In this document: positions 39,661 through 64,000 of the stretch, one piece after another
Layout of the letters: every line of letters starts with the position of its first letter
Position numbering within the stretch: the stretch's first letter is position 1
NCBI RefSeq assembly: GCF_024713975.1
Contig: NC_091095.1
Span: 2,144,001 to 2,208,000, forward strand
DNA from: Paralichthys olivaceus
Taxonomy: Eukaryota; Chordata; Actinopteri; Pleuronectiformes; Paralichthyidae
DNA length: 64,000 nt
Reading direction: 5' to 3'
Notes under the pieces: generated by a model
What the model was told of the DNA's origin: nothing
Database searches by the model: none
Seen by the model: only the letters and a program-made list of their open reading frames with translations
Translations under genes and position numbers: made by a program

Positions 39661-41341
39661 TTATTTTTTGGGCCCAGCTCCTTTGTGCTTCTCAAACTGT
39701 GCGATCTGATTGAAAATATCAAGGAGGTTCGTAGGGAGGGCTTTCTTTGACCTCTCCCCAGAAACACTTCTCTGTTCGTCACTTTCTGATTTTTTACTGA
39801 ATCCTCCCTCTGACCTGCTCCAGTCTTCCTCCGCTCCCCCCCGTCTACGTTCCTTCTCTCTTTTCACCTCTTCTACCTCACTCGTGTCCTCCCTCTCTCT
39901 GTTGTCATACCTACTGCCATCGAAGGAGTTCCTCTTTGACCTGTTCTCCAGCTGTTTGGAAGCAGAGTTTCCAGAATATCCAGATCGGACACTGGATTTC
40001 CGTGAATACTCCGAGTCCGCTGATGAGCACGATACTTTTCGCTTCCTGTTCTCATCTAAGCTACTTCTCCTCTTGGAGTCACTGTTCCTCTGTTTATCTT
40101 CCTTCTCTCTCTCCCTGTATTTATCCTTCGTTTCACTACTTCTGCTCCCTCTATCCTTTCTGTCTGGGCTTCTGCTCACACTGCTCTTCCTTCTCCTCGT
40201 ACTGCTCTCCTTGCTGTCCCTTCTCTTGATTTCTCTACGTGAGGAGTCTGACTCTTCGTTATCTGAGGCTGCCGACAAAGAATAAAGCTGAGAGATGCTT
40301 CTTTCACCGATCTTCTCCTCTACATCCTCCTCACCCCCCTTTCCAAACCCCGGGCCTCCCTTCTGGTTGAGAAAGGTGGCGGAGGTGTTAGGAGGTGCGG
40401 GATACCACTCCACCTCATCCTCCCTCCCATTTCTCTCACTCTTACCCTCCTCACTCCCCCTGCTCCCCCTTGAGGAGATCCTACTGCGGCGTTTACTTCC
40501 ACGCTCAGACTTCCTACGCTTCTTTTTCTTCTTTTTGGACCTCCTACGGGAGGAGGAGGACGATGAGGAAGCAGAGGAGTTCCTGGAGGAAGCGGAGGAT
40601 GAAGACGAGGAAGACGCAGACCTCTTCCGCTTTTTCTTCATTCTGAGGGAACATAAATCCACTGATAATCTCATCCTGATCAAACACCTGGATTTTACAT
40701 TACTTACACGCCTTTACCAGCATTTGAAACTACAAAATAAGTTTTAAAACATGTTATTAATGCAGCAGAATGACATCACATTAAAACTAGGTACCCGATA
40801 CGCGGTGACTTGTATGTACTTGCCGAATCTTTAAAAGATTTGAACCAACTCACCTCTTCTCTTCTTTTAAGATCTTACGCAATTTCTCAGCGCTGGTCTG
40901 GCTCTTAATTTTCACCTGCTCCTTAGCCAGCGCTTCTTCTCGCAGGCGAATTGATTTCTTCACGTCGCCGAGCAAGGCATGACAATGACACGCAAAAGCC
41001 CACAGAGACATATTCAAACACACACACGCACACAAACACACACCATGACCCCAAAGCACGCAACCGAGGCCCCAAAGAAACAGCATTCAGTCATTCATTC
41101 ATTCATTTTGTTATTTACGTCGCAATCAGAAAGTGGAGAGGAAAAGGAAAATCAAAAGTTTAGGACAGAAGAGCGTCACAATTAAAAAACCACAGGTGAC
41201 AGAAGGGAGGAATGCACACAGATTTACCAGAGAGTAAAAGTGATGCGATCCCAGGAGCGAGGGAGGGATGGACAGAGGTGCAGGCAGAGATGTGCAGAGA
41301 TGTGCAGGGTAAATAAACAGCATTTGTTCCCCATTGAGAGA

Positions 41342-41375
<34 letters not shown>

Positions 41376-42394
41376 CGGTTTCAACGTTACCGTGTTGGAC
41401 CAGAGACATGGCACCACGCCCAGTGTCCAGAAGAGAAGTCGTTGTCATTGTGCAGTTATTGTTTTTTTCACCCCCCCCACGAGATCGGTGACAAGGCCGT
41501 GGCAGTCAAAGGGTCAAAGGGCAGAGTTCCGGGGTTGCAGACACACAAACACCAAAACACTTCATCAGTATTACAAACAGCAGCGTCAGGAGGGTGGACA
41601 TGTTTTTTTTTTAAACACACAGAGTAAGAAGACATTGATAAAAGAAATTATATCTTTAAGGATAGAATCTGTACACAGTCAGTTTACCCCGTAAGCTGTA
41701 CATAAGGATAAACAACGCGTCTCCACTTCCTCCAACTTTACAGAGATGAAGCCACATCCGTTAACATGGAGGAGGTGGGGTTTATGACCCATGACGCAGC
41801 CAGCCACCAGGAGGTGATCAAGACACTTTGGCTTCACTTTCTGGGAGCCGTCATGGCGTCCATCTTTATTCACAGTCTATGGTTTTATCCCATTGTAAAC
41901 GCAGTCCGACGCGATTCAGCACCATGGACAGCTCTCTCATTAGATCCTTTCACTGAATGTCTGGGCTGATAACAAATCCATACTTCTAAACAGACAGTAT
42001 AACAGACAGTATAACAGACAGTATAACAGACAGACTATGCTTTGATACAGGAAATGGATGAGCTGAATATCCAAAAAAAACCCCGCAAACAATCAGGCGA
42101 CGAGAATGTTTGTTTCTTTGCTTCGACAACGTCTTTATTTGTTTTTTATCTGTTCTACTGTATTCAAATATGAGAGTATCACATGTCTTCTGTTGTTAGC
42201 ACGTGGTACACGATGTACTAAGTGCATACCTGCAGACTTCACCAAACCCCTGGTCAAGTGTGGTGGCCCCGCTCACCTGTATCGTGTCTGTGATCTTGTG
42301 CAGGGCCTCTTGTGCCTCAGGGTTTGAGTCATCCAGAGACAACGCTCTCCGATACAGTCCCTCCGCTGTTACTAGTTTCTCCTGTTCTTCAAGC

Positions 42395-42428
<34 letters not shown>

Positions 42429-45400
42429 CACACACAAGAGGAAAAGGTTTGATTAAGCTGGGAGAAAGTGTAGATCTGTTTCATTGCTCAAAAACTAGAT
42501 GGAGAAACCATTTATTAAACAATTATTGACTTCCGGTTGTCACCACTCTGATCTGTCAGGGTCAGTACAGGAAATAAAGTACTTACTGTTTCCCTCTCTC
42601 CACCAGTGTCTGGCAGAGGTACTTCCTGGCGTTGCGGTGATCTGGACAGTTTTCCAGAGCCTGTTCAAAATCTGTAATAGCCTTCATGATGCCGCCTTTG
42701 TTAGCGTACCTGAGCAACGAGGGAAACACACAGAATGAACAAAACATGTTGACGATCTAATCACACTATTTGGAGGAAGTGTCAAAGCTGACTGACAATT
42801 TCTTATAATTTTCTTTAAAAAAATCATTTTTACTTTAAACCTGCTCCTTTGATCGTAGAAACTAAGACTATCTCACAGTAAATATTAGAATACATCCAAC
42901 AAACCAAACTTCTATTATTGCCAAAAAGACAATTATGACACAAACGGGAGAAGATATTTGTTTCATATATTTTCCTCTAAAATAAATTCATGCATATTCC
43001 TTATCTAAGGTATTATTTGTCACTGCTGCCGACTTCATTCAGTTTCATGTGAGGTATGGAACACATTATATAAACTCACAGAGCTCCACGTGCCACCAGT
43101 GCTTCTACATTGTTGGTGTCAATCTCCAAAGCCTTGTTATATTCATTCATAGATTCCACATGTCGACCGTGTTTGAAGTGGTCCACGCCTGCACGAACGC
43201 TGAAACGAAAGAAAACACGAGAGACTGAAAATAAAGGTTACATTCACATTAAGAAGCAGCCAGAGGGAGAAAAGTTAAAAGGTTAAAAAGTTCATCAGTG
43301 AGCTGCAGTCAAAATTGAAAAAGTTACCACTTCAAGGCCCAGGATGCAGATTGTTTCTTCCTGATGGAAGAGGCAAAATCTTCCTCCTGGAAAAGTTTAC
43401 TGTGGAGAAAAGAGACACAGATAAGAACTCTGAAGACTTTCTAATAAGTTTTCCTTTTGTTTAAGCTTAGCACTTTCTAGAAGGACTCTCAATCTGAGGA
43501 CTAAAGCACGGACACATGAAAAGCACTGGGCCACAGAAACTCTCCAGACTTTCAAATCAGTCCTCTTACTGTCACTGAAGAATTTACTAAGAGAACCGGA
43601 CTGACAGATGATCTTTATTATCCCTGAGGGGGAAGTTGGGCTTAAAGAGGTTGTATTCATATTACAATTATTCGAGCCAGTCGGCATGTTTACCTCTGTA
43701 GTCCTCTCATCATTGATGGTGGGTGGATGTCGCTGATCCGCACCTTCTCCAGCAGGTAGTCCACGACAGAGGGGTTGTGGTAACCATGGCAGCGCCTCAG
43801 AATGCACTCATACGTCTCGGTGGAGTCGCTGGCTGCACGGAGGCTACGACTGAGAGAGAACGTTCAGAGTGAGCCAACGTGAACGAGTCCCATGCTAGAT
43901 CAGGAACACTGAGAACAATATCTGTGCAGAGCAATAAATGAGGACATTTTTAAATTAAATTGTGTCCCACGCTTCTTCTTTTTAACCCCAGTGAAAGATT
44001 TTATAAATTACTGACTTGGTTCTTATTTCACTGACTATTCCAATATTTATAAACATTATTAAATCTTTTTCTTTCTCTGCTCATGTTCCTCATTCTATCT
44101 CTCTTGATATTGTTTCTTCCTTGTTAAATGAGGAATATTATAATTCATGTTACACATTGTTTGTTTCATTCTGTGTAGGTCTCTTCGGTGTTGCATATTT
44201 TCTTGTGGTTTCTCAAATCGTGTTATTGTGTTACCTGTAGTGTACGGGCAGCTCCTCTCGGGTGATGACGCCCAGTTTGAGGTGCTCCAAGCTGGGAGAC
44301 AGAGACGTCTGTTGGAGGGAGATCGTGACTTTCTCCTGGTAGCGGTCAATGTCTTTCACTCCGGCTGGGGAAGAAAAAAACACAGCGCTCAGTCGGCCAT
44401 GTGAAGTAAGATAAACAGTAAATAATCACAAAATAAAGTGATGTTGTTCTACGTGTTTAATGGATGGAGCTAACACATTCTGACGAGAGCTGTGGTAAAT
44501 TATCCTGGTTGACCGGTGAAGGTGACTTGGAAACAAATTTGTTGTTTTGGTGATGAAATACCTTCTAAGATAACTACATGATTAAAAAATGTCTCATCCC
44601 ATAACGAAAACCGTTGGAGCCAAAAGTCTTTGTTGCCTTTACCGGGGTTTTGTTTTGCTTTTTTGGGCATTAGCATTTAACACCACAAGAGGGCAGGGAC
44701 ACAGTAATGATGGCTCATATCCCACAATGCAGTTTTAAATAGACACTGGTGAGTAGTCTCAGTGAGAACTAAGAAACACGGTCTGGAACTAAAGCAGGAT
44801 CAGCAAGAAGGAAGTCATAAAGGATTTACAAAAGGTGTGCGTGGCTATGGCTATCAGTATCGGGCCAATTAGCCACAACAGTCTTGTTAAGGATCAGAGC
44901 CTTGTGATAACTTTAGGCAACGTATGCCAACTTTATCTTTGTGTAGATCACGTGTAAAGTTAAACTGACAAAGCCAAACGAGACACTAACCTCTGATGAA
45001 GTCCCCAATCTGGTAGTAGGACAGAGGATCATCATGGTTGCCGGTGGAGGGAATTTCTCTGATGTGACACAGAGCCTAAAGGTGGAGAGGAAATCGTGTT
45101 TTGTTCAATATGAACAACAATCGTACAGAATCTAGAAAGGTCAGGGGAGCAGGAGGAAAAATGTGAGTTAGAGCATGAAATGAATAAATGGGATGTAAAA
45201 GTACCATGGATGTCAATCGTCATAAGTTTGTTTACATGAGATCTCAACCTGTGTGGTTCATTGAAAACACATTGTGGAATAGCAATGACAGACCTGGTGT
45301 CAACATCCATCTCAGGTGACCTGAGCTGCGAGTTCAGGTGTGAATGCATTTGAGATTCTGCTCACTCCGATCACCCAGGATGTAAATTCCAGAAACCCAG

Positions 45401-47335
45401 AGAACCACACAGTTGGTTTTGGCAAACTAACAATTCAATTTCCTTATTTATAATGGCTGACTTATTTTATCACATTCACACCTACTGAGAGAATTGTATT
45501 AACTTTGTGGAAGCGAGGGGTGGTGACCAGATAAACTGGCTGATCCAGGATTTTTCTCTTTCTTAAATTTGATGATATAACGCGTCACCCCAAGTGGAGG
45601 AATGTGGTTATTGATGTGTGTGAAGATTTCTGGCCTGAGTCATGTACACTCATGTTAGTTTAGCTTTCTGACTCACAGACAACTCTAGGTCTTCTATGTC
45701 CCTCTTCAGTCCTCCTGCCATGCACAGCAGAGTGAGAAAGAAGCCGTATTCTCTAATGTTGTTGATCCTCCCCACCACAATGTCTCCCTTTTCCAAGTCT
45801 CTGTACAGCATGGATCTTCTCTCCTCGTACGACACCTCCATGAATAGCTCCAGTGGTGGCATGATGGCATAGGGCTCTGAGTGAAGCACAGGGAGAAATA
45901 CGAATCAAACAACCAGGAAGTGAGAAAACTGTGATACGATCCGTGTTTGAACGACACACGACATTTGAAGACATTACTTTGAGCTCTTCAGACATGAAAC
46001 AGGTATTTCTCATAGTTTTCTGACGTATTATCGACAAAACAACATAAAGATAAACTGATAATGAAAATGATTGTTGGTTGCAGCCCCGATGAGCAAAGAA
46101 ATAGTATTAAACAGTATAAGTGCCCAACGACAGCAGGAGAGAGCAGAGCATTCTATTCTACATGGTGTTCTGACACATTAGTGTAGATGTGGCCTGAGAC
46201 GTGAGGTCGAACCTGCAGCCTCCTCCTCCTGCTCCTCATGCTCCTCGTCTTGAGGAGTTGTGGTCTTCCATGACGGACAGAACAGGATGTCAGCCTTTCT
46301 TGCAATGAACTGCTCCACAAGGGGACTGCCCTGCTCTTCCGCCCTGCTGCACAAAAAGCAGAAACATTAATCATTTGACAAACTAATCGTTGTCTAATTC
46401 ATTGCTGGTCAAAAGAAGAAGAACAGTTTTGTACAAACTTTAATAGAAACTGTTGAGTTACTGCACAATGTCTGTAATGACCAATGTTTGGTTACAGACC
46501 TCAAAATTCATCTACATTTTAAACCGTTAGAGAGGAACCAACAAATAATGAAAACGACTTAACAATTAGACTAGAGCTGAAATGATCAATGGATTGGTCA
46601 AGAAGTCATCACTACACGTCTGTGTACATCGATGGGAACGTGTTCTAATCTGAATGTGCACCGCGATCATTTCTAAAGAAGCTCACATATAAATGCAAGA
46701 TACCTCCACAAGCTTCACATGAAATTGACAAAACATGAAAACCTTAAGAGACTGAAGGGATCTTCAAGATGCTCCTGGAACATGGGGAGCTGAAATCCAG
46801 ACGTGCAGCTATGAGTCACAACTTTCTGACTTAGCTTTGAGATAAAAACAAAAGTATAATAACACTAAAGGTGATGGGAGGTAACTATCTGCACAACACT
46901 AATGTGTCACAGCGCTGTGTGTCCTGCTGTAATTAAAACAAGCTTCAGAATCATTTGTCAAGTGGAAGCCTGTGAAAAGGGAAGAAGTGTCCAAACCAGT
47001 TTACTGGAGTTTTAAAAAAACAAACCTGGCAGCTGACCTGTGACTTCAAATCAAATCACGGGATGTGGTTCGACAGAAGTCAGTCAGAAGCTGCTGAGTT
47101 GATCCAGCAGCTCTCTCTTGTAATAAACATCTGGAATGTGCTGATGTGTGTTGCGCGCACGCACACACACACACACACACACACACAACTTTCAGACTCA
47201 CCTCTCGCTCGTGACTTTGCACAGCTCGGGCACCACGGCCTGGAAGTCCGGGTTCTCTGTCTGCTCACATTTCAGTTTGTTGAACAGGGACTCGCCGTGA
47301 AACACGAGACACTGTCTCAACAGGTCTCTGTCCAT
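39661..47335 (-). CDS. ttc14: TTC14, S1 and TPR domain protein
   Basis: Tetratricopeptide repeat protein 14. Its molecular role is poorly defined, and the domain set suggests RNA-associated work in the nucleus. There are 12 coding exons: 47,335-47,202; 46,346-46,213; 45,876-45,677; 45,075-44,991; 44,364-44,235; 43,849-43,694; 43,399-43,328; 43,199-43,080; 42,709-42,587; 42,394-42,277; 40,957-40,854; 40,642-39,661. They sum to 2,358 bases (785 aa), close to the mammalian length. An S1-type RNA-binding fold spans about 117-205 ([17 protein letters not shown] is its start). TPR repeats run from about 296 to 424, including LVARGALYANKGG and [15 protein letters not shown]. The last exon codes for a Lys/Arg/Ser-rich, probably disordered tail that starts with MKKKRKRS and a Ser run. 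The exon 2 donor (gttcga) is weak and the exon 11 acceptor has a poor pyrimidine tract, but both give matching phases and conserved protein. It shares orientation with fxr1. Confidence 0.94.
40958..42276 (-). other. ttc14: ttc14 intron 10 with repeats
   Basis: This intron holds an (AG)n tract (about 41,336-41,375), a teleost interspersed repeat (41,695-41,885) and a short tandem run of three acagacagtata-type units (about 41,991-42,035). No alternative exon was recognised. Confidence 0.6.
41695..41885 (+). repeat. teleost interspersed repeat in ttc14 intron
   Basis: Ends with the very common fish repeat phrase gtcatggcgtccatctttat then tcacagtctatgg. It is preceded by the matching 'cagccaccaggaggtgatcaagacactttggcttcac' body. 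The family class is not certain. Confidence 0.65.
42395..42427. repeat. (CA)n tract at the ttc14 exon 10 acceptor
   Basis: The dinucleotide run directly abuts the exon 10 acceptor. On the gene strand the TG repeat therefore replaces the usual pyrimidine tract before the tag acceptor. Length change here could affect splicing. Confidence 0.85.
43598..43650 (-). mobile_element. fragment of a SINE/LINE 3' tail
   Basis: Contains tctttattatccctgaggg and ggaagttgg, the reverse complement of the 'cccc..gggataataaag' tail shared by many fish SINEs and LINEs. It lies in ttc14 intron 6. Confidence 0.45.
47160..47187. repeat. (CA)n tract in ttc14 intron 1
   Basis: Short CA run a few bases from the exon 1 donor. 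Confidence 0.85.
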
Positions 47336-47620: not shown

Positions 47621-48949
47621 TTGGTTATCTTCGTACGAACTCACATCGCTGCGCTGATGTCACGTTCGCAAAAATCGCGAACTGTCCCGAGAGACAAATC
47701 ACAACTACCGCTACTTTACTGGCACAAACTTTAGCAGCGGCAAGCTAACAGGAAGAGCCGAAGGGAGCATGCGCGGGGTGTGTTACACTGCAGCTTTCCG
47801 GAGGAAACAAACCCACCTAGGAACCACAGTCATCATGATTTGATTTATTAACTGTGTGCTTATTTTAATCTGAGCTAAAATATTTGTCTAGATCATCAAT
47901 AAATTATGTTTAAAAAAATACCAATGATTCAATATAGTTCAATCAATCTATCTTTCTATCTATCTGTCTATCTTTTTATCTATCTGTCTGTCTATCTTTA
48001 TATCTATCTATCTATCTATCTATCTTTTTATCTATCTATCTATCTTTTTATCTATCTTTTTATCTATCTATCTATCTGTCTATCTTTTTATCTATCTTTT
48101 TATCTATCTGTCTATCTTTTTATCTATCTATCTGTCTATCTTTATATCTATCTATCTGTCTATCTTTTTATCTCTCTATCTATCTTTTTATCTATCTTTT
48201 TATCTATCTATATATCTGTATATCTTTTTATTTATCTATCTTAATAATAAGTTCATGATCTATTGTCTGACAACATCTTATCATAATGGTTTTTTTTAAC
48301 GAGCTTGGCATTACAATTAAGAGTTTGTTTTTTTCTTTGGCAAATACAAGTGTCCCTTGTTTGGCACCAATGTTCAGCACCACAGTAACATCAGTGTGTG
48401 GTGTTGCATGGCTCCTCCGTGCAGAATATCCACATTCTCTCTTCTGGTGTTGTTAGAAAACATTTTAGGGATTTCAAACATGTCTGTGATTTAACAAACC
48501 ATGTGATCCAAATTGCCCCCACTGTCTTGCAATATTGAGCATTTCTTTTCTTTGTTGTGGTGTAGCAGAAAAATGATGTTGTATGGGCTCGAACTCTGAG
48601 AGTGGAGTTAGAGTTATATACTGTATAATTTGAGAATCTGTCTGACAACCTTGATGACAGCATCCTGATTCATCAAAAGCCACAACCCTACGACTATTAG
48701 CATGGAAAAACCTGTCATGATGAAGATGGGGTTTCCATCATAATTGATATCATAATAACTCCATCATGCAATTTGAAAAGCCCCTGGGGACGGACAACAC
48801 TAATAATAGATACAGGATGAAATCAATATTTTTGTAAGGGTTATGTTTGACATCATGGTGTCTTGTGTGTTCCAGTTCTGCTTTAGCTTCCTTTTCATCT
48901 GTGTTAAAATCAAACTCAAACTGTCCTTTAACACTCACTAATTGATGCT
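47621..48949. other. intergenic stretch between ttc14 and the Thr-rich locus
   Basis: Contains the TATC tetranucleotide array at about 47,942-48,240 and then about 700 bases of complex DNA (48,250-48,949). On the minus strand the latter has short frames (for example 48,750-48,938, starting SVKGQFEFDFNTDEKEAKAE) that look protein-like but match nothing I recognise and are broken by stops. A decayed transposon or pseudogene is possible. Confidence 0.4.
47942..48240. repeat. (TATC)n tetranucleotide array
   Basis: About 300 bases of TATC/TTTT/TGTC-type units. The Tyr-Leu-Ser-Ile frame at 47,906-48,244 is produced by the repeat. Confidence 0.9.
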
Positions 48950-50110
48950 GACCTGGTTTTTCAGGTTATATGACAGACGCATCTATTACTGCTACCTTGT
49001 CCCTCTCTCTGTAGCTGAAGGAGGAGCAAAGCTCAACTAAGGCTCAATGTAAAACAAAGAAAAATTACCACTCTGTTGTTGGAGTAGTGAGGAGTAATAC
49101 CACTCATCATGGAAAGAACAATACTCTATTGTATATTTTTGCTTGGATATTTTCATGCATCCTGCGCACAAGGTCAGAATTCATTGCAAGTGATTTTTGT
49201 CTGCATTTTAGGATACGTACTTTAGGAGAGTAAACAGTAGAATACTTCAAGAGCAGCTCAGTGGTGGTTAGTGATTTGTGTGTGTTATCCATTTAAAATT
49301 CAGAAAAATAATACTATATGTTTTTGCCTGTTATTGGTGTCTCGCTCCGAAACCTACGTGAATGAGGGGTAATGTGGTCGTCCTCTAACCAGATAGTTGG
49401 CGGCTCGAATCCCAGGTGTCCCTTGACAAGATGCTAACCCTAACCCCCACATAGATGTTGAATGTACTAGTTGGCATGTAATGTAATGTTGTCTGATTAA
49501 ACAAACATAATTTCCAATTGCTGCAAGCAAGATAAGACAACAATGATTACACAAAAAGAAATTGTGTTTTTCATTGCAACATGTGAAAAATATGATTTAT
49601 CAAAACCAACCATAAGAATAAATACATATAGGCTACGGCTGTTGGACCAAACCATCCAAAAGTTAAAACTTGGTAAAGGGTTTTCAGAGTTTAATTAATT
49701 ACTTGATTTAATGGGATTAAAAAAAACAATTCATTGGGTTTATTTCATTTCCAAGATGACATTTGGTACTTGAATGTCTCTCTGTCAAGGACATTGGAGA
49801 ATCATTAACACACACACAAATGTAAATCCTGGTCAGCAGACTCAGGTTCCACTCTCTCACCTGTAGTTGATTTGTACTTGGTTTGACGGCAGAACTTTAG
49901 GACACTTTATACATGTCTTACATCTGATTGTGATTAATACTAAAACAGAGAAAAAGTTAATTTACCTTGTGTAAATAGATGAATTTCCCACTCTGTTGTA
50001 ATGAAGAAACTTGTTATTCAGGATTCCTAAACACTTTTTCTCTTTCTCATAATGTCTCTTTACATTATCAACACCAACCATGACTGCTAATCCAACCTCA
50101 ACAACTGCAG
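48950..50110 (+). repeat. duplicated flank, unit 1 (upstream of Thr-rich exon 1)
   Basis: Matches 58,919-60,624 closely over two blocks: about 48,950-49,700 with 58,919-59,660, and 49,971-50,110 with 60,488-60,624. The bases between the blocks differ. It behaves like an intron: it ends with a branch-like ctaat (50,087-50,091) and a cag acceptor at 50,108-50,110. Unit 1 keeps a short tRNA-SINE-like piece (about 49,395-49,450) that is deleted in unit 2. Confidence 0.85.
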
Positions 50111-53100
50111 TGACAACCACAACAACTCCAACTACAGTCGCAACTACAGCAACTACAACCATGACCACAACTCCAACAACAACAACTACAGCCCCAACAA
50201 CAACTACAACTACAGCTCCAACTACTACAACTACAGTCCCAACAACAACTACAGTTTCAACTACTCCAACTACAGCTCCAGCCATAACAACTACAGCTTC
50301 AACTACAACAACTCCAACCACAACAACAGCTTCAACTACAGCTCCAACTACAACAACTACAGCCCAAACAACCACAACTACAGCTCCAACTACAACAACT
50401 ACTGCTTCAACTACAACAACTACAGCTCCAGCTACAACTACAGCCCCAATAACCACAAATACAGCCCCAACAACCACAACTACAACTCCAACTACAACAA
50501 CTACAGCTTCAACTACAGCAACTACAGCTCCAGCTACAACTACAGCCCCAATAACCACAAATACAGCCCCAACAACCACAACTACAGCTCCAACTACAAC
50601 AACTACAGCTTCAACTACAATAACTACAGCTCCAGCTACAACTACAGCCCCAATAACCACAAATACAGCCCCAACAACCACAACTACAGCTCCAACTACA
50701 ACAACTACAGCTTCAACTACAACAACTACAGCCCCAACAACCACAACTACAGCTCCAACTACAACTACAGCCCCAACAACCACAACTACAGCTCCAACTA
50801 CAGCCCCAACAACCACAACTACAGCTCCAACTACAACAACTACAGCTTCAACTACAACAACTACAGCCCCAACAACCACAACTACAGCTCCAACTACAAC
50901 TACAGCCCCAACAACCACAACTACAGCTACAACTACAACAACTACTGCTTCAACTACAGCAACCACAGCTTCAACTACAACAACAACAGCCCCAACCACA
51001 ACTACAGCTTCAACTACAGCTCCAACTACAACAACTACAGCCCCAACAACCACAACTACAGCTCCAACTACAACTACAGCCCCAACAACCACAACTACAG
51101 CTCCAACTACAACTACAGCCCCAACAACCACAACTACAACTACAACTACAACAACTCCAGCTACAACTACAGCCCCAATAACCACAAATACAGCCCCAAC
51201 AACCACAACTACAGCTCCAACTACAACAACTACAGCTTCAACTACAACAACTACAGCCCCAACAACCACAACTACAGCTCCAACTACAACTACAGCTCCA
51301 ACTACAACAACTACAGCTTCAACTACAACAACTACAGCCCCAACAACCACAACTACAACTACAACTACAGCCCCAACAACCACAACTACAGCTCCAACTA
51401 CAACAACTACTGCTTCAACTACAGCAACCACAGCTTCAACTACAACAACTACAGCCCCAACCACAACTACAGCTTCAACTACAGCTCCAACTACAACAAC
51501 TACAGCCCCAACAACCACAACTACAGCTCCAACTACAACTACAGCCCCAACAACCACAACTACAGCTCCAACTACAACTACAGCCCCAACAACCACAACT
51601 ACAACTACAACTACAACAACTACTGCTTCAACTACAACAGCTACAGCCCCAACAACCACAACTACAGCTCTGACTACAACTACAGCCCCAACAACCACAA
51701 CTACAGCTTCAACTACAGCTCCAACTACAACAACTACAGCCCCAACAACCACAACTACAGCTCCAACCACAACAACTACAGCTTCAACTACAACAGCTAC
51801 AGCCCCAACAACCACAACTCCAACTCCAACTACAGCTTCAACTACAGCCCCAACAACCACAACTACAGCCCCAACAACCACAACTACAGCTCCAACTACA
51901 ACAACTACTGCTTCAACGACAACAACTACAGCCCCAACCACAACCACTACAACTCCAACCACAACTACAGCTCCAACTACAACAACTACAGCTCCAACCA
52001 CAACAACTACAGCTTCAACTACAACAACCACAGCTCCAACTACAACAACTACAGCCCCAACCACAATAACTACAACTCCAACCACAACAACTACAGCTTC
52101 AACTACAGCTCCAACTACCACAACTACAGCTCCAACTACAACTACAGCCCCAACAACCACAACTACAGCTCCAACTACAACAACTACTGCTTCAACGACA
52201 ACAACTACAGCCCCAACCACAACCACTACAACTCCAACCACAACTACAGCTCCAACTACAACAACTACAGCTCCAACCACAACAACTACAGCTTCAAATA
52301 CAACAACCACAGCTCCAACTACAACAACTACAGCCCCAACCACAATAACTACAACTCCAACCACAACAACTACAGCTCCAACTACCACAACTACAGCTCC
52401 AACTACAACTACAGCCCCAACAACCACAACTACAGCTCCAACTACAACAACTACTGCTTCAACTACAACAGCTACAGCCCCAACAACCACAACTACAACT
52501 CCAACTACAGCTTCAACTACAACAATAACAGCCCCAACAACCACAACTACAGCTTTGACTACAACTACAGCCCCAACAACCACAACTACAGCTTCAACTA
52601 CAGCTCCAACTACAACAACTACAGCCCCAACAACCACAACTACAGCTCCAACTACAACAACTACAGCTTCAACGACAGCTACAGCTACAGCCCCAACAAC
52701 CACAACTCCAACTCCAACTACAGCTTCAACTACAGCCCCAACAACCACAACTACAGCCCCAACAACCACAACTACAGCTCCAACTACAACAACTACTGCT
52801 TCAACAACAACAACTACAGCCCCAACCACAACCACTACAACTCCAACCACAACAACAGCTCCAACTACAACAACTACAGCTCCAACCACAACAACTACAG
52901 CTTCAACTACAACAACCACAGCTCCAACTACAACAACTACAACAACTACAGCCCCAACCACAATAACTACAACTACAACCACAACAACTACAGCTTCAAC
53001 TACAGCTCCAACTACCACAACTACAGCTCCAACTACAACTACAGCCCCAACAACCACAACTACAGCTCCAACTACAACAACTACTGCTTCAACGACAACA

Positions 53101-56100
53101 ACTACAGCCCCAACCACTACCACTACAACTCCAACCACAACTACAACAACTACAGCTCCAACCACAACAACTACAGCTTCAACTACAACAACCACAGCTC
53201 CAACTACAACTACAGCCCCAACAACCACAACTACGACTCCAACTACAACTACTGCTTCAACGACAACAACTACAGCCCCAACCACAACCACTACAACTCC
53301 AACCACAACTACAGCGCCAACTACAACAACTACAGCTCCAACTACAACAACAACAGCCCCAACCACAATAACTACAACTCCAACCACAACAACTACAGCT
53401 CCAACTACCACAACTACAGCTCCAACTACGACTACAGCCCCAACAACCACAACTACAGCTCCAACTACAACAACTACCGCTTCAACTACAACAACTACAG
53501 CTCCAACTACAACAACTACCGCTTCAACTACAACAACTACAACCCCAACCACAACAACTACAGCCCCAACCACAACTACAGCTCCAACTACAACAACTAC
53601 AGCCCCAACAACCACAACTACAGCTCCAACTACAACTACAGCCCCAACAACCACAACTACAGCTCCAACTACAACTACAGCCCCAACAACCACAACTACA
53701 GCTCCAACTACAACAACTACTGCTTCAACTACAACAGCTACAGCCCCAACAACTACAACTCCAACTACAACAACTACTGCTTCAACTACAACAGCTACAG
53801 CCCCAACAACTACAACTCCAACTACAACAACTACAGCTTCAACTACAACAGCTACAGCCCCAACAACCACAACTACAACTCCAACTACAGCTTCAACTAC
53901 AGCTCCAACTACAACAACTACAGCCCCAACAACCACAACTACAGCTCTGACTACAACTACAGCCCCAACAACCACAACTACAGCTTCAACTACAGCTCCA
54001 ACTACAACAGCTACAGCCCCAACAACCACAACTACAACTACAACTACAACCACAACTACAGCTTCAACTACAGCTCCAACTACAACAACTACAGCCCCAA
54101 CAACCACAACTACAGCTCCAACTACAACAACTACAGCTTCAACTACAACAGCTACAGCCCCAACAACCACAACTCCAACTCCAACTACAGCTTCAACTAC
54201 AGCCCCAACAACCACAACTACAGCCCCAACAACCACAACTACAGCTCCAACTACAACAACTACAGCCCCAACCACAACCACTACAACTCCAACCACAACT
54301 ACAGCTTCAACTACAGCTCCAACCACAACAACTACAACTCCAACTACAACAACTACTGCTTCAACTACAACAGCTACAGCCCCAACAACCACAACTACAA
54401 CTCCAACTACAGCTTCAACTACAGCTCCAACTACAACAACTACAGCCCCAACAACCACAACTACAGCTCTGACTACAACTACAGCCCCAACAACCACAAC
54501 TACAGCTTCAACTACAGCTCCAACTACAACAGCTACAGCCCCAACAACCACAACTACAACTCTAACTACAACCACAACTACAGCTTCAACTACAGCTCCA
54601 ACCACAACAACTACAGCCCCAACAACCACAACTACAGCTCCAACTACAACAACTACAGCTTCAACTACAACAGCTACAGCCCCAACAACCACAACTCCAA
54701 CTCCAACTACAGCTTCAACTACAGCCCCAACAACCACAACTACAGCCCCAACAACCACAACTACAGCTCCAACTACAACAACTACTGCTTCAACGACAAC
54801 AACTACAGCCCCAACAACAACCACTACAACTCCAACCACAACTACAGCTCCAACTACAACAACTACAGCTCCAACCACAACAACTACAGCTTCAACTACA
54901 ACAACCACAGCTCCCACTACAACAACTACAGCCCCAACCACAATAACTACAACTCCAACCACAACAACTACAGCTTCAACTACAGCTCCAACTACCACAA
55001 CTACAGCTCCAACTACAACTACAGCCCCAACAACCACAACTACAGCTCCAACTACTGCTTCAACGACAACAACTACAGCCCCAACCACAACCACTACAAC
55101 TCCAACCACAACTACAGCTCCAACTACAACAACTACAGCTTCAACTACAACAACCACAGCTACAACTACAACAACTACAGCCCCAACCACAATAACTACA
55201 ACTCCAACCACAACAACTACAGCTCCAACTACAACTACAGCCCCAACAACTACAACTACAGCTCCAACTACAACAACTACAGCTCCAACCACAACAACTA
55301 CAGCTTCAACTACAACAACCACAGCTCCAACTATAACAACTACTGCCCCAACCACAACAACTACAACTCCAACCACAACTACAGCTTCAACTACAGCTCC
55401 AACCACAACAACTACAGCTTCAACTACAATAACCACAGCTCCAACTACAACAACTACAGCCCCAACAACCACAATTACAGCAACAACTGCAACAACTACA
55501 GCCCCAACAACCACAACTACAACTCCAACTACAGCTTCAACTACAGCTCCAACTACAACAACTACAGCCCCAACAACCACAACTACAGCTCTGACTACAA
55601 CTACAGCCCCAACAACCACAACTATAGCTTCAACTACAGCTCCAACTACAACAACTACAGCCCCAACAACCACAACTACAGCTCCAACTACAACAACTAC
55701 AGCTTCAACTACAACAGCTACAGCCCCAACAACCACAACTCCAACTACAGCTTCAACTACAGCCCCAACAACCACAACTACAGCCCCAACAACCACAACT
55801 ACAGCTCCAACAACCACAACTACAGCTTCAACTACAACAACCACAGCTCCAACTACAACAACTACAGCCCCAACCACAATAACTACAACTCCAACCACAA
55901 CAACTACAGCTCCAACTTCAACTACAGCCCCAACAACCACAACTACAGCTCCAACTACAACAACTACCGCTTCAACTACAACAACTACAGCCCCAACCAC
56001 AACAACTACAACTCCAACCACAACTACAGCTTCAACTACAGCTCCAACCACAACAACTACAGCTTCAACTACAATAACCACAGCTCCAACTACAACAACT

Positions 56101-58081
56101 ACAGCCCCAACAACCACAATTACAGCAACAACTGCAACAACTACAGCCCCAACAACCACAACTACAACTCCAACTACAGCTTCAACTACAGCTCCAACTA
56201 CAACAACTACAGCCCCAACAACCACAACTACAGCTTCAACTACAGCTCCAACTACAACAACTACAGCCCCAACAACCACAACTACAGCTCCAACTACAAC
56301 AACTACTGCTTCAACTACAACAACTACAGCCCCAACCACAACAACTACAACTCCAACCACAACTACAGCTTCAACTACAGCTCCAACCACAACAACTATA
56401 GCTTCAACTACAATAACCACAGCTCCAACTACAACAACTACAGCCCCAACAACCACAATTACAGCAACAACTGCAACAACTACAGCCCCAACAACCACAA
56501 CTACAACTCCAACTACAGCTCCAACTACAACAACTACAGCCCCAACAACCACAACTACAGCTCTGACTACAACTACAGCCCCAACAACCACAACTACAGC
56601 TTCAACTACAGCTCCAACTACAACAACTACAGCCCCAACAACCACAACTACAGCTTCAACTACAGCTCCAACTACAACAACTACAGCCCCAACAACCACA
56701 ACTACAGCTCCAACTACAACAACTACTGCTTCAACTACAACAACTACAGCCCCAACCACAACAACTACAACTCCAACCACAACTACAGCTTCAACTACAG
56801 CTCCAACCACAACAACTATAGCTTCAACTACAATAACCACAGCTCCAACTACAACAACTACAGCCCCAACAACCACAACTACAACTCCAACTACAGCTCC
56901 AACTACAACAACTACAGCCCCAACAACCACAACTACAGCTCTGACTACAACTACAGCCCCAACAACCACAACTACAGCTTCAACTACAGCTCCAACTACA
57001 ACAACTACAGCCCCAACAACCACAACTACAGCTCCAACTACAACAACTACAGCTTCAACTACAACAGCTACAGCCCCAACAACCACAACTCCAACTCCAA
57101 CTACAGCTTCAACTACAGCCCCAACAACCACAACTACAGCCCCAACAACCACAACTACAGCCCCAACAACCACAACTACAGCTCCAACTACAACAACTAC
57201 TGCTTCAACGACAACAACTACAGCCCCAACAACAACCACTACAACTCCAACCACAACTACAGCTCCAACTACAACAACTACAGCTCCAACCACAACAACT
57301 ACAGCTTCAACTACAACAACCACAGCTCCAACTACAACAACTACAGCCCCAACCACAATAACTACAACTCCAACCACAACAACTACAGCTCCAACTACCA
57401 CAACTACAGCTCCAACTACAACTACAGCCCCAACAACCACAACTACAGCTCCAACTACAACAACTACCGCTTCAACTACAACAACTACAGCCCCAACCAC
57501 AACTACAGCTCCAACCACAACAACTACAGCTTCAACTACAACAACTACAGCCCCAACCACAACAACTACAACTCCAACCACAACTACAGCTTCAACTACA
57601 GCTTCAACTTCAACTACAGCTTCAACTTCAACTACAACAACTACAGCCCCAACCACAACAACTACAACTCCAACCACAACAACTACAGCTCCAACTACCA
57701 CAACTACAGCTCCAACTACAACTACAGCCCCAACAACCACAACTACAGCTCCAACTACAACAACTACCGCTTCAACTACAACAACTACAGCCCCAACCAC
57801 AACTACAGCTCCAACCACAACAACTACCGCTTCAACTACAACAACTACAGCCCCAACCACAACAACTACAACTCCAACCACAACTACAGCTTCAACTACA
57901 GCTCCAACCACAACAACTACAGCTTCAACTACAATAACCACAGCTCCAACTACAACAACTACAGCCCCAACCACATCAACTACAACCACAACTACAGCTT
58001 CAACTACAGCCCCAACAACCACAACTACAGCAGCGACTACAGGACCAAGCACCACCACTGGAGAAGAAACAACAACCCAAG
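50111..58081 (+). CDS. giant Thr-rich mucin-like exon, copy 1 (partial gene)
   Basis: One frame stays open from 50,053 to 58,089. It codes for about 2,660 residues, mostly Thr, in runs broken by Ala-Pro, Ala-Ser, Pro or Ala-Leu (typical unit APTTTTT, 21 bases). Lys, Arg, Asp, Glu and Cys are absent from the body. The non-repeat tail has GPSTTT, GEET and TTTQ. This is the composition of a heavily O-glycosylated mucin PTS domain. I place the exon between the acceptor at 50,110 and the good donor at 58,082 (caag|gtaact). It then has 7,971 bases and is phase 1 at both ends, the class usual for extracellular domains. If an unspliced start is used, the first ATG is at 50,080, but there is no signal peptide. 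No 5' exon or Cys-rich mucin domain was found, so the gene is incomplete. A non-coding satellite is the alternative. Confidence 0.55.
50111..58081 (+). repeat. Thr-codon minisatellite array, unit 1
   Basis: The same interval at DNA level. Short units of 15-24 bases (such as acaactacagctccaact) contain almost only A, C and T on this strand. They are arranged in higher-order blocks marked by rare variants. The Ala-Leu variant (gctctgactacaact) recurs near 51,666, 53,943, 54,474, 55,590, 56,567 and 56,938. The acaattacagcaacaactgc variant recurs at 55,471, 56,116 and 56,455. The array evolves by duplication of several-hundred-base blocks. Confidence 0.92.
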
Positions 58082-58220
58082 GTAACTGACTTCAAATTGT
58101 CATGTCTTCATAATGTAAATTTTCCCAGTGTGGTTGAAATACAACTTGGTCAGGATTGTAAATCAACCTGAGATCCAATGATAATCTAAAACATAATACA
58201 GGGGTTATGTATTTTTGTAG

Positions 58221-58335
58221 TATGTGAGGATCCCTCTCCCAGACGGACAGAAGTGCAATAGATGTGTAATGAAGAACGTCAGCAAAATCAGAGTATTTAC
58301 AGTCTTGGTTAGAATAAACAGTTTGTTGCATGATG
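58221..58335 (+). CDS. candidate terminal exon of Thr-rich gene copy 1
   Basis: A tatttttgtag acceptor ends at 58,220. Joined in phase 1 to the donor at 58,082, the frame reads VCEDPSPRRTEVQ and stops at 58,259-58,261. AATAAA follows at 58,313-58,318. Phase, acceptor, stop and polyadenylation signal all fit a short last exon after a 139-base intron. The peptide matches nothing I know, and a chance arrangement is quite possible. Confidence 0.3.
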
Positions 58336-58429
58336 GAAGGTAAATGAACTGAGGAATTATTGTCAATAATGGTAGAGTATCTGAGCAGACATGTTGTATA
58401 TCAAGCAGTCTTGCTGTAATCATAGTCCA

Positions 58430-58915
58430 CGATCAGGATCAACAATCACGATCGGATGCCATCATAGCCCACAATCCATTCTAATGATCCACCATTTCCA
58501 TCACGATCAGCCAGCACAATCTCTGATTCGCAATCCACCATCATAATTCACGATGTGGCTGCAGTCGCGGCCCCGGATCAGTGAACGATAAGGCTTAGGG
58601 ACTCCAGAGAAGAAGTTAAGATAGTAACATGTATTGTTATAAGTTATTTGATGTGATAAGGAGGGAGAAGAGGAAAGAGAAGCTCCATGTGTCATGTGTC
58701 CCCCGACATTCTAGACCCATAGCAGCATAACTAAGAGCAGGTTGAAGACAATCCTGGACCAGCTCTAACTACAAGCTTTATCATGAAGGAAGGTTTTAAG
58801 CCTACTCTTAAATGAAGAGAGGGTGTCTCCCTCCCGAACTGAAACTGGGAGATGATTCCACAGGAGAGGAGCCTGAAAGCTGAAAGCTCTGTGTTTTGGA
58901 AACATGCATGTCTGT
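58430..58915 (+). repeat. teleost interspersed repeat between the two units
   Basis: Carries several phrases of a repeat common in percomorph genomes: 'atcataattcacgatgtggctgcag', 'ctagacccatagcagcataactaagag', 'gagagggtgtctccctcccgaact' and 'ccacaggagaggagcctgaaagctg'. It ends exactly where homology to unit 1 begins, so it may mark the duplication breakpoint. Confidence 0.6.
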
Positions 58916-58918
58916 GAG

Positions 58919-60624
58919 CTTACCTGGTTTTTCAGGTTATCTGAGAGTAGCTTCTATTACTGCTACCTTGTCCCTCTCTCTGTAAATGAAGGAGGAGCAA
59001 AGCACAACTAAGGCACAATGGAAACCAAAAACAAATTACCACTCGGTTGTTGGAGTAGTGAGGAGTAACACCACTCATCATGGAAAGAACAATACTCTAT
59101 TGTATATTTTTGCTTGGATATTTTCATGCATCCTGCGCACAAGGTCAGAATTCGTTGCAAGTGATATTTGTCAGCATTTTAGGATACGTACTTTAGGAGA
59201 GTAAACAGTAGAATACTTCAAGAGCAGCTCAGTGGTGGTTAGTGATTTGTGTATGTTATCCATTTAAAATTCCAAAAAATAATGCTATATGTTTTTGCCT
59301 GCTATTGGTGACTCGCTCAAAAACTACTACTACTGTTGCGCGGTCGTGAATGAGGGGTAATGTGGTCGTCCTCCAACCAGATGGCTAACCTCCACATGGT
59401 TGGATGTACTAGTTGGCATGTAATGTAATGCTGTCTGATTAAATAAACATAATTTCCAATTGCTGCAAGCAAGATAAGACAGCAATAATTACACAAAAAG
59501 AAATTGTGTTTTTCATTGCAACAAGTTATAACGTGAAAAATATGATTTATCAAAACCAACCATAAGAATAAATACATATACGGCTGTTGGACCAAACCAT
59601 CCTAAGGTTAAAACTTGGTAGGGTTTCCAGACATTAATTAATAACTTGATTTAATGGGATTAAAAAGACAGAATACTACAGAGGGGGACAGGGTGTCTGA
59701 TGTTCAAGATGACTGGGTCAGTTAATTCATGAAGGCGTCAAATTCAGTTCAACTTCAACTATTGTCACTTTGTCAACAACTACAGACCAATAGATTTCCG
59801 AGACAACTCTGAATTATTGAACAGATGTATCACAGTAGCATCTCTGACACAATGGTTGGAGCTTCTTCACTGAGGTGAAGACTGGTGTCAGATGGTACTG
59901 ATGAAGATTAACTTCCTTTATTTATCCCACAAGGGGAAATTCTTTTTACACTCATTTTACACTTTTAACACATGCAGTTCAACCCCCCCCACCCCCCCCA
60001 AACACACACACACACACACAGAGGGCTCAAAGACATGCACATGCACATTTGTGGAGAGAGATTGTAGAGTAGAGTAGAGTGATGGGCAGCCCCAGGAGAA
60101 GCGCCCCGTGAGCAATTGGGGAATTGGGGGGCATGGTGCCTTGCTCAAGGGCACATCAGCAGTGCCCAGGAGGTGAACTGACACCTCTCCAGCTACCAGT
60201 CCACCTTCCGTACCCATGGTACAGCTTGTTTTCTAGACTCGGGTCAGCAAATCTTGGGTAAAACTGAGTCTGAACTGGTTCAAAGCAGTGGATTGTTGGA
60301 CACAGTGTTTATATAACTCGTTTGGAAGAAGGGAGTTATGCATACTTGAGCTTGGCATTGCTTTGCAGCTCAGTGATTTTCTTTGATAAACTGTGTTGTG
60401 CAATAGATATGATCAGTTTATTTTGTTCACTTTGTAGAAGTAACACTTTATCTGCGTATCCACGTGTTGTTTCAGTTCAACAACACAAATAGATGAATTT
60501 CCCACTCTGTTGTAATGAAGCAACTTGTTATTCAGGATTCCTAAACTTTTTTTCTCTTTCTCATAATGTCTCTTTACATTATCAACACCAACCATGACTG
60601 CTAATCCAACCTCAACAACTGCAG
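58919..60624 (+). repeat. duplicated flank, unit 2 (upstream of Thr-rich exon 2)
   Basis: Second copy of the segment at 48,950-50,110, with insertions. About 59,660-60,487 is absent from unit 1 and includes a minus-strand SINE. The last 137 bases, including the ctaat branch-like site and the gcag acceptor at 60,621-60,624, are almost identical to unit 1. Confidence 0.85.
59905..60215 (-). mobile_element. SINE with LINE-type tail, inside unit 2
   Basis: On the minus strand the body gtacggaaggtggactggta (ending at 60,215) matches the SINE at 23.16 kb. It then runs through 'gagcaaggcaccatg' to the family tail 'aatttccccttgtgggataaataaag' at about 59,910. A GT/C-rich tract lies inside (59,981-60,020). 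It is absent from unit 1, so it was inserted after the segment duplication or lost from unit 1. Confidence 0.7.
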
Positions 60625-63600
60625 TGACAACTACAACTACAGGTGCAACTACAGCAACTCCAACCATGACCACAACTCCAACAACAACTACAACTACAGC
60701 TCCAACAACAACTACAACTACAGTCCCAACAACAACTACAACTACAGCTCCAACTACTACAACTACAGTCCCAACAACAACTCCAACCACTACTGCTTCA
60801 ACTACAACAACTACAGCCCCAACCTCAACTACAGCTCCAACCACAACAACTACAGCTCCAACCACAACAACTACAGCTTCAACTACAATAACCACAGCTT
60901 CAACTACAACAACTACAGCCCCAACCACAACTACAGCTTCAACTACAGCTCCAACTACAACAACTACAGCTCCAAATACAACCGCAGCCCCAACAACCAC
61001 AACTACAGCCCCAACAACCACAACTACAGCTCCAACTACAACAACTACTGCTTCAACTACAACAGCTACAGCCCCAACCACAACAACTACAACTCCAACT
61101 ACAGCTTCAACTACAGCTCCAACTACAGCCCCAACAACCACAACTACAGCTCCAACTACAACAACTACTGCTTCAACGACAACAACTACAGCCCCAACCA
61201 CAACAACTACAACTCCAACCACAACAACTACAGCTCCAACCACAACAACTACAGCCCCAACCACAATAACTACAACTCCAACCACAACAACTACAGCTCC
61301 AACTACTACAACTACAGCTCCAACTACAACTACAGCCCCAACAACCACAACTACAGCTCCAACGACAACAACTACCCCCCCAACTACAACTACAGGTCCA
61401 ACCACAACAACTACAACTACAGCTTCAACTACAGCTCCAACTACAACAACTACAGCCCCAACCACAACAACTCCAACCACAACTACAGCTCCAACTACAA
61501 CAACTACAGCTCCAACCACAACAACTACAGCTTCAACTACAACAACCACAGCTCCAATTACAACAACTACAACCCCAACCACAGCTCCAACTACAACAAC
61601 TACAGCTTCAACTACAGCTCCAACTACAGCTCCAACTACCACAACTACAGCTACAACTACAGCCCAAACAACCACAACTACAGCTCCAATTACAACAACT
61701 ACCACTTCAACTACAACAACTACAGCCCCAACAACCACAACTACATCTCCAACCACAACTACAGCTTCAACTACAGCCCCAACCACAACAACTCCAACCA
61801 CAACTACAGCTCCAACTACAACAACTACAGCTCCAACCACAACAACTACAGCTTCAACTACAACAACCACAGCTCCAATTACAACAACTACAACCCCAAC
61901 CACAGCTCCAACTACAACAACTACAGCTTCAACTACAGCTCCAACTACAGCTCCAACTACCACAACTACAGCTCCAACTACAGCCCAAACAACCACAACT
62001 ACAGCTCCAATTACAACAACTACCACTTCAACTACAACAACTACAGCCCCAACAACCACAACTACATCTCCAACCACAACTACAGCTTCAACTACAGCTC
62101 CAACCACAACAACTACAGCTTCAACTACAATAACCACAGCTTCAACCACAACAACTACAGCCCCAATAACCACATCTACAGCTCCAACTTCAACTACAGC
62201 CCCAACAACCACAACTACAGCTCCAACTACAACAACCACAGCTCCAACCACAACAACCACATCTCCGACTTCAACTACAGCCCCAACAACCATAACTACA
62301 GCTCCTCCTACAACAACTACTGCTTCAACGACAACAACTACAGCTTCAACTACAACAACCACAGCTCCAACCACAACAACCACAGCTCCAACTACAACAA
62401 CTACAACTTCAACCACAACTACAGCTCCAACTACAGCAACTACAACTCCAACCACAACAACTACAGCTTCAACTACAACAACAGCTCCAACTACAACAAC
62501 TACAGCTCCAACCACAACAACTACAGCTTCAACTACAATAACCACAGCTCCAACTACAACAACTACAGCCCCAACCACAACAACTACAACTCCAACCACA
62601 ACTACAGCTCCAACTACAACAACTACAGCCCCAACCACAACAACTACAACTCCAACCACAACTACAGCTCCAACTACAACAACTACAGCTCCAACCACAA
62701 CAACTACAGCTTCAACTACAACAACAACAGCTCCAACTACAACAACTACAGCCCCAACCACAATAACTACAACTCCAACCACAACAACCACAGCTCCAAC
62801 TACAACAACTACAGCCCCAACCACAATAACTACAACTCCAACCACAACAACTACAGCTTCAACTACAACAACTACAACTCCAACCACAACTACAGCTTCA
62901 ACTACAGCTCCAACCACAACAACAACAGCTTCAACTACAATAACCACAGCTTCAACTACAACAACTACAGCTTCAACTACAGCTCCAACTACAACAACTA
63001 CAGCCCCAACAACCACAACTACAGCTCCAACTTCAACTACAGAACCAACAACCACAATTACAGCTCCAACTACAACAACTACAGCTTCAACTACAGCTCC
63101 AACTACAACAACTACAGCCCCAACAACCACAACTACAGCTCCAACAACCACAACTACAGCTCCAACTACAACAACTACAGCCCCAACAACCACAACTACA
63201 GCTCCAACTTCAACTACAGGACCAACAACAACAACTACAGCTCCAACTACAACAACTACCGCTTCAACTACAACAACTACAGCCCCAACCACAATAACTA
63301 CAACTCCAACCACAACAACTACAGCCCCAACAACCACAACTACAGCTCCAACTACAACAACTACCGCTTCAACTACAACAACTACAGCCCCAACCACAAC
63401 AACTACAACTCCAACCACAACTACAGCTTCAACTACAGCTCCAACCACAACAACTACAGCTTCAACTACAATAACCACAGCTCCAACTACAACAACTACA
63501 GCCCCAACAACCACAATTACAGCAACAACTGCAACAACTACAGCCCCAACAACCACAACTACAACTACAGCTTCAACTACAGCTCCAACTACAACAACTA

Positions 63601-64000
63601 CAGCCCCAACAACCACAACTACAGCTCTGACTACAACTACAGCCCCAACAACCACAACTACAGCTTCAACTACAACAACTACCGCTTCAACTACAACAAC
63701 TACAGCCCCAACCACAACAACTACAACTCCAACCACAACTACAGCTTCAACTACAGCTCCAACCACAACAACTACAGCTTCAACAACAATAACCACAGCT
63801 CCAACTACAACAACTACAGCCCCAACAACCACAATTACAGCAACAACTGCAACAACTACAGCCCCAACAACCACAACTACAACTACAGCTTCAACTACAG
63901 CTCCAACTACAACAACTACAGCCCCAACAACCACAACTACAGCTCTGACTACAACTACAGCCCCAACAACCACAACTACAGCTTCAACTACTGCTCCAAC
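60625..64000 (+). CDS. giant Thr-rich mucin-like exon, copy 2 (runs off window)
   Basis: Second copy of the Thr-rich coding block. It begins after the same acceptor (60,621-60,624) with the same leading codons (ACA ACT after the split Val) and stays open to the window end. I saw no in-frame stop. Early units differ from copy 1 (for example TTTTTTP and TPT variants, and TTGAT near 60,638-60,652). The block near 63,450-64,000 matches the distal part of copy 1, sharing the ITATTATTTAP and ALTTTTAP markers. It could be a second PTS exon of the same mucin gene or the PTS exon of a tandem paralogue. The 3' end is not in the window. Confidence 0.5.

Follow-up and report, generated by a model that had tools for sequence, protein, structure and literature searches.

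A 64,000-nt stretch of the Paralichthys olivaceus genome (positions 2144001-2208000 of the contig designated C3, hereafter the window) contains the start of a protein-coding locus that probably encodes a secreted mucin of the non-disulfide-gel type, in which an N-terminal cassette would have been tripled ahead of one short C-terminal module. Three cassettes are arrayed in tandem, each made up of a 64-nt signal-peptide-like exon and a threonine (Thr)-rich exon with phase-1 boundaries on either side; the Thr-rich exons measure 7,971, 4,089 and 1,917 nt, every one of these lengths being divisible by 3, and two short candidate 3′ exons lie downstream of the third cassette only. The Thr-rich arrays look coding and selected, the stronger evidence being the lack of frameshifts, an excess of synonymous changes and the anatomy of signal exon and splice sites. 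We regard the locus as a real and probably functional mucin-type gene, whose putative cassette layout would be unusual.

Organization of the locus

The genome assembly comprises 588 Mb in 25 contigs, and our reading was extended 80 kb beyond the right edge of the window. Positions in this extension carry the prefix L009, with L009:713 corresponding to position 64713 of the extended window. In the feature list and the text a slash within a motif marks the splice point.

48965..49172, plus strand: signal-peptide-like exon of cassette 1, with a putative 5′ untranslated region (UTR) part, ATG at 49109, encoding MERTILYCIFLLGYFHASCAQ, donor AAG/GTCAGA at 49173, phase 1
50111..58081, plus strand: Thr exon 1, 7,971 nt, phase 1 in and out, unit approximately TTTTTAP, tail GPSTTTGEETTTQ
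58222..58891, no strand assigned: dispersed repeat element at the junction of cassettes 1 and 2, identified by genome matches, with AATAAA near 58314
58936..59143, plus strand: signal-peptide-like exon of cassette 2, its 64-nt coding part (ATG at 59080) identical to that of cassette 1 and placed between an acceptor-like site at 58936 and a donor at 59144
60625..64000, plus strand: part of Thr exon 2 inside the window; the exon ends at 64713 (L009:713), totals 4,089 nt and shares its tail and donor with Thr exon 1
L009:2328-2391, plus strand: signal exon of cassette 3 (ATG at 66328), beyond the window
L009:3022-4938 (67022-68938; C3:2211022-2212938), plus strand: Thr exon 3, 1,917 nt
L009:5498-5583 and 5730-5810, plus strand: candidate 3′ exons A and B with stop, from open frames and splice contexts
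L009:6824: AATAAA beyond the candidate 3′ exons

Within the cassettes, an intron of about 0.6-1.5 kb separates the signal exon from its Thr exon. A first-pass annotation of the window had described two giant open Thr-rich blocks in tandem; both exist, with the extents listed above, but a third Thr exon follows them beyond the window edge and each block has a signal-like exon of its own. The first open stretch (50053-58086) lies in frame 0 and the second in another frame, running off the window edge at 64000. According to Tandem Repeats Finder a 21-bp unit spans both blocks, block 1 having overlapping other periods as well, and 21 bp correspond to seven residues, TTTTTAP and its variants.

Thr exon 1, bordered by the acceptor CTGCAG/TGACAAC and the donor AAG/GTAACT, is open through 2,656 full codons, of which 72.6% are T or S, 14% A and 11% P. 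It encodes no cysteine (Cys) and two charged residues, both inside the GEETTTQ tail, as had been stated for both blocks ahead of that tail; for block 2 the statement does not hold in full, one Glu lying within the array and three charged residues being present in all. The clean splice donor reported at the 3′ edge is likewise there, and both tail and donor recur at the end of block 2. Across the three Thr exons T and S together make up 73, 72 and 65% of residues, T alone 63-69% and P 10-11%, with phase-1 splice contexts at both ends of each exon and with acceptor and donor kept. The only Cys codons are those for residues 8 and 19, both in the putative signal peptide, leaving the predicted mature chain without Cys. 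In the broad sense, mucins are secreted or tethered proteins with a long P/T/S repeat exon, and the Thr exons here are long, in frame and built of tandem repeats rich in P, T and S. The higher-order unit of Thr exon 3, TTTTTAQTTATTAP, is its own, and this exon holds 25 Gln codons, despite the identical signal exon.

Such a composition also brings to mind the antifreeze glycoprotein (AFGP) genes of fishes, which passages of PMC8622921 describe as encoding a signal peptide and a long Thr-Ala/Pro-Ala repeat, and which would make of this locus a signal peptide followed by one huge Thr/Ala/Pro repeat exon. We consider this reading highly improbable and rejected it on the tripeptide test: AAT, PAT, TAA and TPA together occur just 7, 1 and 2 times in the three Thr exons, there are no Leu-Asn/Ile-Phe linkers, and T accounts for 63-69% of residues and not for a third.

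A signal-peptide-like exon in three copies

The same exon, ATGGAAAGAACAATACTC…GCACAAG/GT, is found upstream of every Thr block, with ATGs at 49109, 59080 and 66328, and encodes MERTILYCIFLLGYFHASCAQ. Its coding part is identical at 64 of 64 bases across the three copies, while 27 of 280 gap-free columns are variable in its flanks (probability of 0 of 64, 0.0015), and a genome search with a 201-base query around it matches just these three sites. Read by eye, the product resembles a signal peptide, with a short charged start, a hydrophobic core and Ser-Cys-Ala before the presumptive cleavage point. The exon ends in phase 1 and joins in frame to its Thr exon in all three copies. Approximately 140-160 bp upstream of each ATG are duplicated together with it, and an acceptor-like site, tttttcag/GTTA, precedes the three ATGs by 144, 144 and 138 bases. 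Transcripts might therefore begin with a non-coding exon located still further upstream, and the 5′ UTR part of cassette 1 would begin at ttttcag/GTTATATGAC (48965).

Coding constraint on the Thr-rich exons

The first-pass annotation had attached weight to a frame that stayed open through heavy repeat turnover. The frame is indeed open and free of frameshifts; openness by itself, however, is weak evidence of coding, because other frames are open too and few single changes give stops. Blocks 1 and 2 each have an extra open sense frame, coding for Asn/Tyr/Ser, and an open antisense frame, coding for Val/Ala/Gly, and only 0.6-0.8% of single changes in the Thr blocks create a stop. In Thr exons 1-3, 2,605 of 2,656, 1,320 of 1,362 and 596 of 638 codons have C as their second base (98%, 97% and 93%); the observation that repeat lags are all multiples of 3 follows from this NCN pattern and was discarded as evidence of coding. 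An 18-bp satellite at 7801-8838 (57 copies) likewise holds one open stretch of 260 codons, which shows how little openness means.

Both the additional open frames with their scarcity of potential stops and the fact that slippage of trinucleotide-based units preserves frame would suit an (ACN)n-type satellite without coding function, or the remains of a decayed gene, in which composition alone keeps the frame open. We hold this account to be improbable in the light of the following evidence. First, no frameshift occurs across the 4,656 codons of the three Thr exons, no segment suggesting a shifted frame, whereas copies 1 and 2 of the adjacent intron differ by 38 substitutions and seven indels over 510 aligned bases, six of the seven indels being out of frame. 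Second, synonymous changes are in excess. Eighteen non-overlapping near-identical repeat pairs (4,163 aligned bases) show 11, 9 and 25 differences at codon positions 1, 2 and 3, and their 44 informative codons, a small sample, comprise 25 synonymous versus 19 nonsynonymous changes, where a simple neutral model expects 33% to be synonymous (p=0.0012, ratio of nonsynonymous to synonymous rates, dN/dS, ~0.37). In a diagonal scan, counts over all pairs (E1-E1) come to 415 differences at codon position 3, 190 at position 1 and 69 at position 2; these counts are not independent, and we therefore relied on the 18 non-overlapping pairs. Third, the signal exon is invariant and phases match across exons. 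Fourth, the 18-bp satellite of the same window, notwithstanding its 260-codon open stretch, has stops in each of the three forward frames and served as our non-coding control. Its changes fall evenly on the codon positions, with 95, 90 and 100 counted against the consensus and not between pairs as in the Thr-exon test. The earlier proposal of selection rather than an idle satellite is thus supported by the lack of frameshifts, the synonymous excess, the phase-1 splice contexts and the signal-like exon.

Candidate 3′ end and connection of the cassettes

Splice contexts were scored with general site frequencies, and all ranks given here are among all GT sites scored. The phase-1 frame leaving Thr exon 3 can run into L009:5498-5583 and 5730-5810, which would encode GPTAVAYLQMKISLSGEVSNSTIVELVSQ-FIKNQLLNGTAHTVNVKTIQRVRVAP, a candidate C-terminus of 55 residues, followed by a stop, and the donor of candidate exon A ranks in the top 0.4%. 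Every Thr exon is in phase 1 on both sides, and therefore any cassette could be joined in frame to the common 3′ exons, or all of them could be chained. Candidate isoforms would have 2,733, 1,439 or 715 residues and the chained protein 4,735. It is conceivable, and we put it forward tentatively, that the locus offers three alternative 5′ cassettes (each with a start, a signal peptide and a proline/threonine/serine, or PTS, exon, of 2,657, 1,363 or 639 codons) to one constant C-terminal module, with widely differing mucin lengths set by start-exon choice or by phase-1 chaining. A search of the genome gave no second copy of the C-terminus, and the three forward frames scanned between the cassettes gave no Pfam domain, so that repetition would be confined to the 5′ cassette. 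Two other connections were tried: an exon at 58129 (TGTGGTTG…) was discarded since the preceding intron, of 47 nt, is too short, and signal exon 2, if Thr exon 1 were spliced to it internally, would bring in a TAA (as read by eye).

An in-frame TGA lies three bases after the donor GT in all three copies (…TTTQGN or …TTSPGN before the stop), so that onward splicing is not forced. The cassettes might accordingly be three separate mucin genes, each with a start of its own and two coding exons, cassettes 1 and 2 ending at the TGA after the Thr exon (…GEETTTQGN and stop) with polyadenylation in the dispersed element, and the longer C-terminus belonging to copy 3 only, at present or in the past. The AATAAA near 58314 in the junction element and the duplication of the ~140-160 bp before each ATG agree with such an account, as does MUC7, for which passages of PMC4997351 describe the same two-coding-exon layout. 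We nevertheless judge it unlikely: the stop sits directly behind a well-scoring donor (top 0.6-1.7%) that is kept in three copies, the AATAAA falls in a transposon-like repeat, and the duplicated upstream block starts near the acceptor-like site.

A dispersed element is present at both cassette junctions (58222-58891 and L009:854-1193), with an insertion point common to copies 1 and 2, and the sequence at 58222-58891 recurs in more than 30 other genome places, a lower bound, at 72-88% identity. At the 3′ junction copies 1 and 2 agree to 98% across 561 bp, and at the Thr acceptor to 97.7% across 133 bp, while 24 of 326 aligned columns differ in the flanks of their signal exons; copy 3 has no long near-identical repeat segment in common with exons 1 and 2. 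This pattern points to a duplication of some age, after which exchange or conversion would have taken place recently between Thr exons 1 and 2. An artefact of assembling two haplotypes seems unlikely, because the non-coding flanks differ by 7%.

Domain searches and mucin class

Signal-peptide, VWD or SEA exons had been proposed as targets for a search beyond 64 kb, and of these the signal-peptide-like exon was found, VWD and SEA not being found in the stretches scanned. Neither VWD nor any other Pfam domain is detected in six frames of L009:4938-9899, no Pfam domain in the three forward frames of window positions 47900-50110 and 58082-60618 and of L009:714-3021, and no Pfam match among ten open reading frames of the window. 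The VWD/C8/CK cysteine-rich domains of the gel-forming MUC2/5/6/19 class are therefore missing by Pfam from the non-repeat stretches scanned.

To the eye, AVAYLQMKISLSGEVSNSTIVELVSQFIKNQLLNGTAHTVNVKTIQR, the candidate C-terminus, resembles the strand-helix-strand half of a SEA domain, and we considered that the locus might encode a membrane-bound SEA-type mucin, such as sea-bream I-Muc or Muc13, with its SEA and membrane parts shortened or undetected. Excerpts from PMC3680472 present both of these as mucins with a SEA domain and a transmembrane (TM) segment, and one hydrophobic stretch, at 66083, exceeds our hydropathy threshold. This interpretation is improbable, however. The SEA model gives no match to the candidate C-terminus (HMMER filters drop most weak matches), and ten SEA matches were obtained in the genome, none of them on this contig, so that the suspected domain is not supported; no 20-residue stretch rises above threshold in 68939-71600, the 2.7 kb after Thr exon 3, at a threshold that also missed the signal exon. 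The run at 66083 belongs to an open stretch (L009:2029-2256), located past Thr exon 2 and ahead of signal exon 3, that could be due to chance or form part of an inserted element.

No TM exon having been found after Thr exon 3, the product would be soluble. In the mechanism that we propose for a secreted mucin with a tripled N-terminal cassette, the transcript, spliced between cassettes, would yield a chain that the signal peptide directs into the endoplasmic reticulum, where N-acetylgalactosamine (GalNAc) transferases would load the repeats, ~65-73% Thr/Ser, with O-glycans. The O-glycosylated product, without Cys in its mature chain, would form a stiff, hydrated bottle-brush, and its presumed setting and role would be those of a soluble lubricant, barrier or decoy mucin within mucus.

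Several observations weigh against this assignment. The candidate 3′ exons are deduced solely from open frames and splice contexts, and no second copy of them appeared in the genome search; the alternative donor of exon B is weak (top 7.4%), and the end of that exon is therefore uncertain. Searches with the candidate C-terminus returned nothing convincing from Pfam (best DUF1758, E 0.044, below cut-off), only a sliding-clamp model from NCBIfam (E 0.028, 14 bits versus a cut-off of 284) and one unconvincing match among PDB sequences (E 1.6). The signal exon falls below the 20-residue hydropathy threshold, which is long for a signal peptide, and its donor, GTCAGA, is only moderate (top 3.2%). 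Besides the stop already described behind each Thr-exon donor, the Thr-exon acceptors hold just 10 of 17 pyrimidines, and splice-site conservation in copies 1 and 2 is partly trivial because acceptor and donor are shared by descent. Finally, the 18-pair test is small, and its excess at position 3 equally suits the antisense Val/Ala/Gly frame, which has the same wobble base; what speaks for the sense frame is the signal exon together with the splice sites, and a poly-valine protein would be implausible.

Comparison with known systems

MUC7, a salivary mucin of placental mammals, has a second exon coding for the signal peptide and then one exon of in-frame O-glycosylation repeats, giving two coding exons, as set out in passages of PMC4997351. 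The likeness to our locus is one of layout, a signal-peptide or signal-peptide-like exon being placed before a single repeat exon; here the cassette is threefold and the repeats are far longer and mostly Thr. In the portion of PMC13345508 on which we draw, the canonical human mucins all have a large exon with a variable number of tandem repeats (VNTR), and both MUC4 and MUC20 have been partially duplicated. Large VNTR exons, clustering (MUC3A/12/17, MUC21/22, MUC2/5AC/5B/6) and partial gene copies, as of MUC4, are shared with the locus described here; the human clusters, however, are listed in that portion as separate genes, whereas at our locus the repetition involves the 5′ cassette alone, ahead of a single candidate 3′ module.

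Among fish proteins, the sea-bream I-Muc is characterized in excerpts from PMC3680472 by a SEA domain, a TM segment and a cytoplasmic tail and by the lack of a clear mammalian ortholog. Our locus would likewise encode a fish mucin; the two are compared here by description, and the SEA, TM and tail of I-Muc were not found at our locus. Fish AFGP genes, in the sections of PMC8622921 used here, combine a signal peptide, a very long Thr-based repeat, linkers and clustered copies; a signal-peptide-like exon, the long Thr-based repeat and the clustering are seen at our locus as well, which differs in its TTTTTAP-type unit and in having no linkers. Neither the locus nor the cassette arrangement was described in a narrow search of open-access literature (mucin with TTC14; fish threonine-rich or SEA mucins).

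If confirmed, the locus would represent a fish mucin growing by two routes at once, through turnover within a repeat exon and through duplication of entire cassettes. Unequal in length and in divergence, the three copies nevertheless have frame and signal exon in common, and would therefore provide a direct test of selection on mucin length; they would also allow a test of mucin-length switching by exon choice at a single locus.

Genomic neighborhood

To the left, the minus strand carries a gene at 39664-47335 with its start at 47335 (translated by eye), which encodes a TPR-like stretch, below Pfam cut-offs, and a Ser/Arg-rich tail. It looks like TTC14, and we use that name tentatively. About 1.8 kb separate its start codon from the ATG of signal exon 1. 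The TTC14-like gene and the mucin locus stand head to head, and a shared promoter region is possible. In the interval that separates the two, an ATCT-type array occupies 47942-48241.

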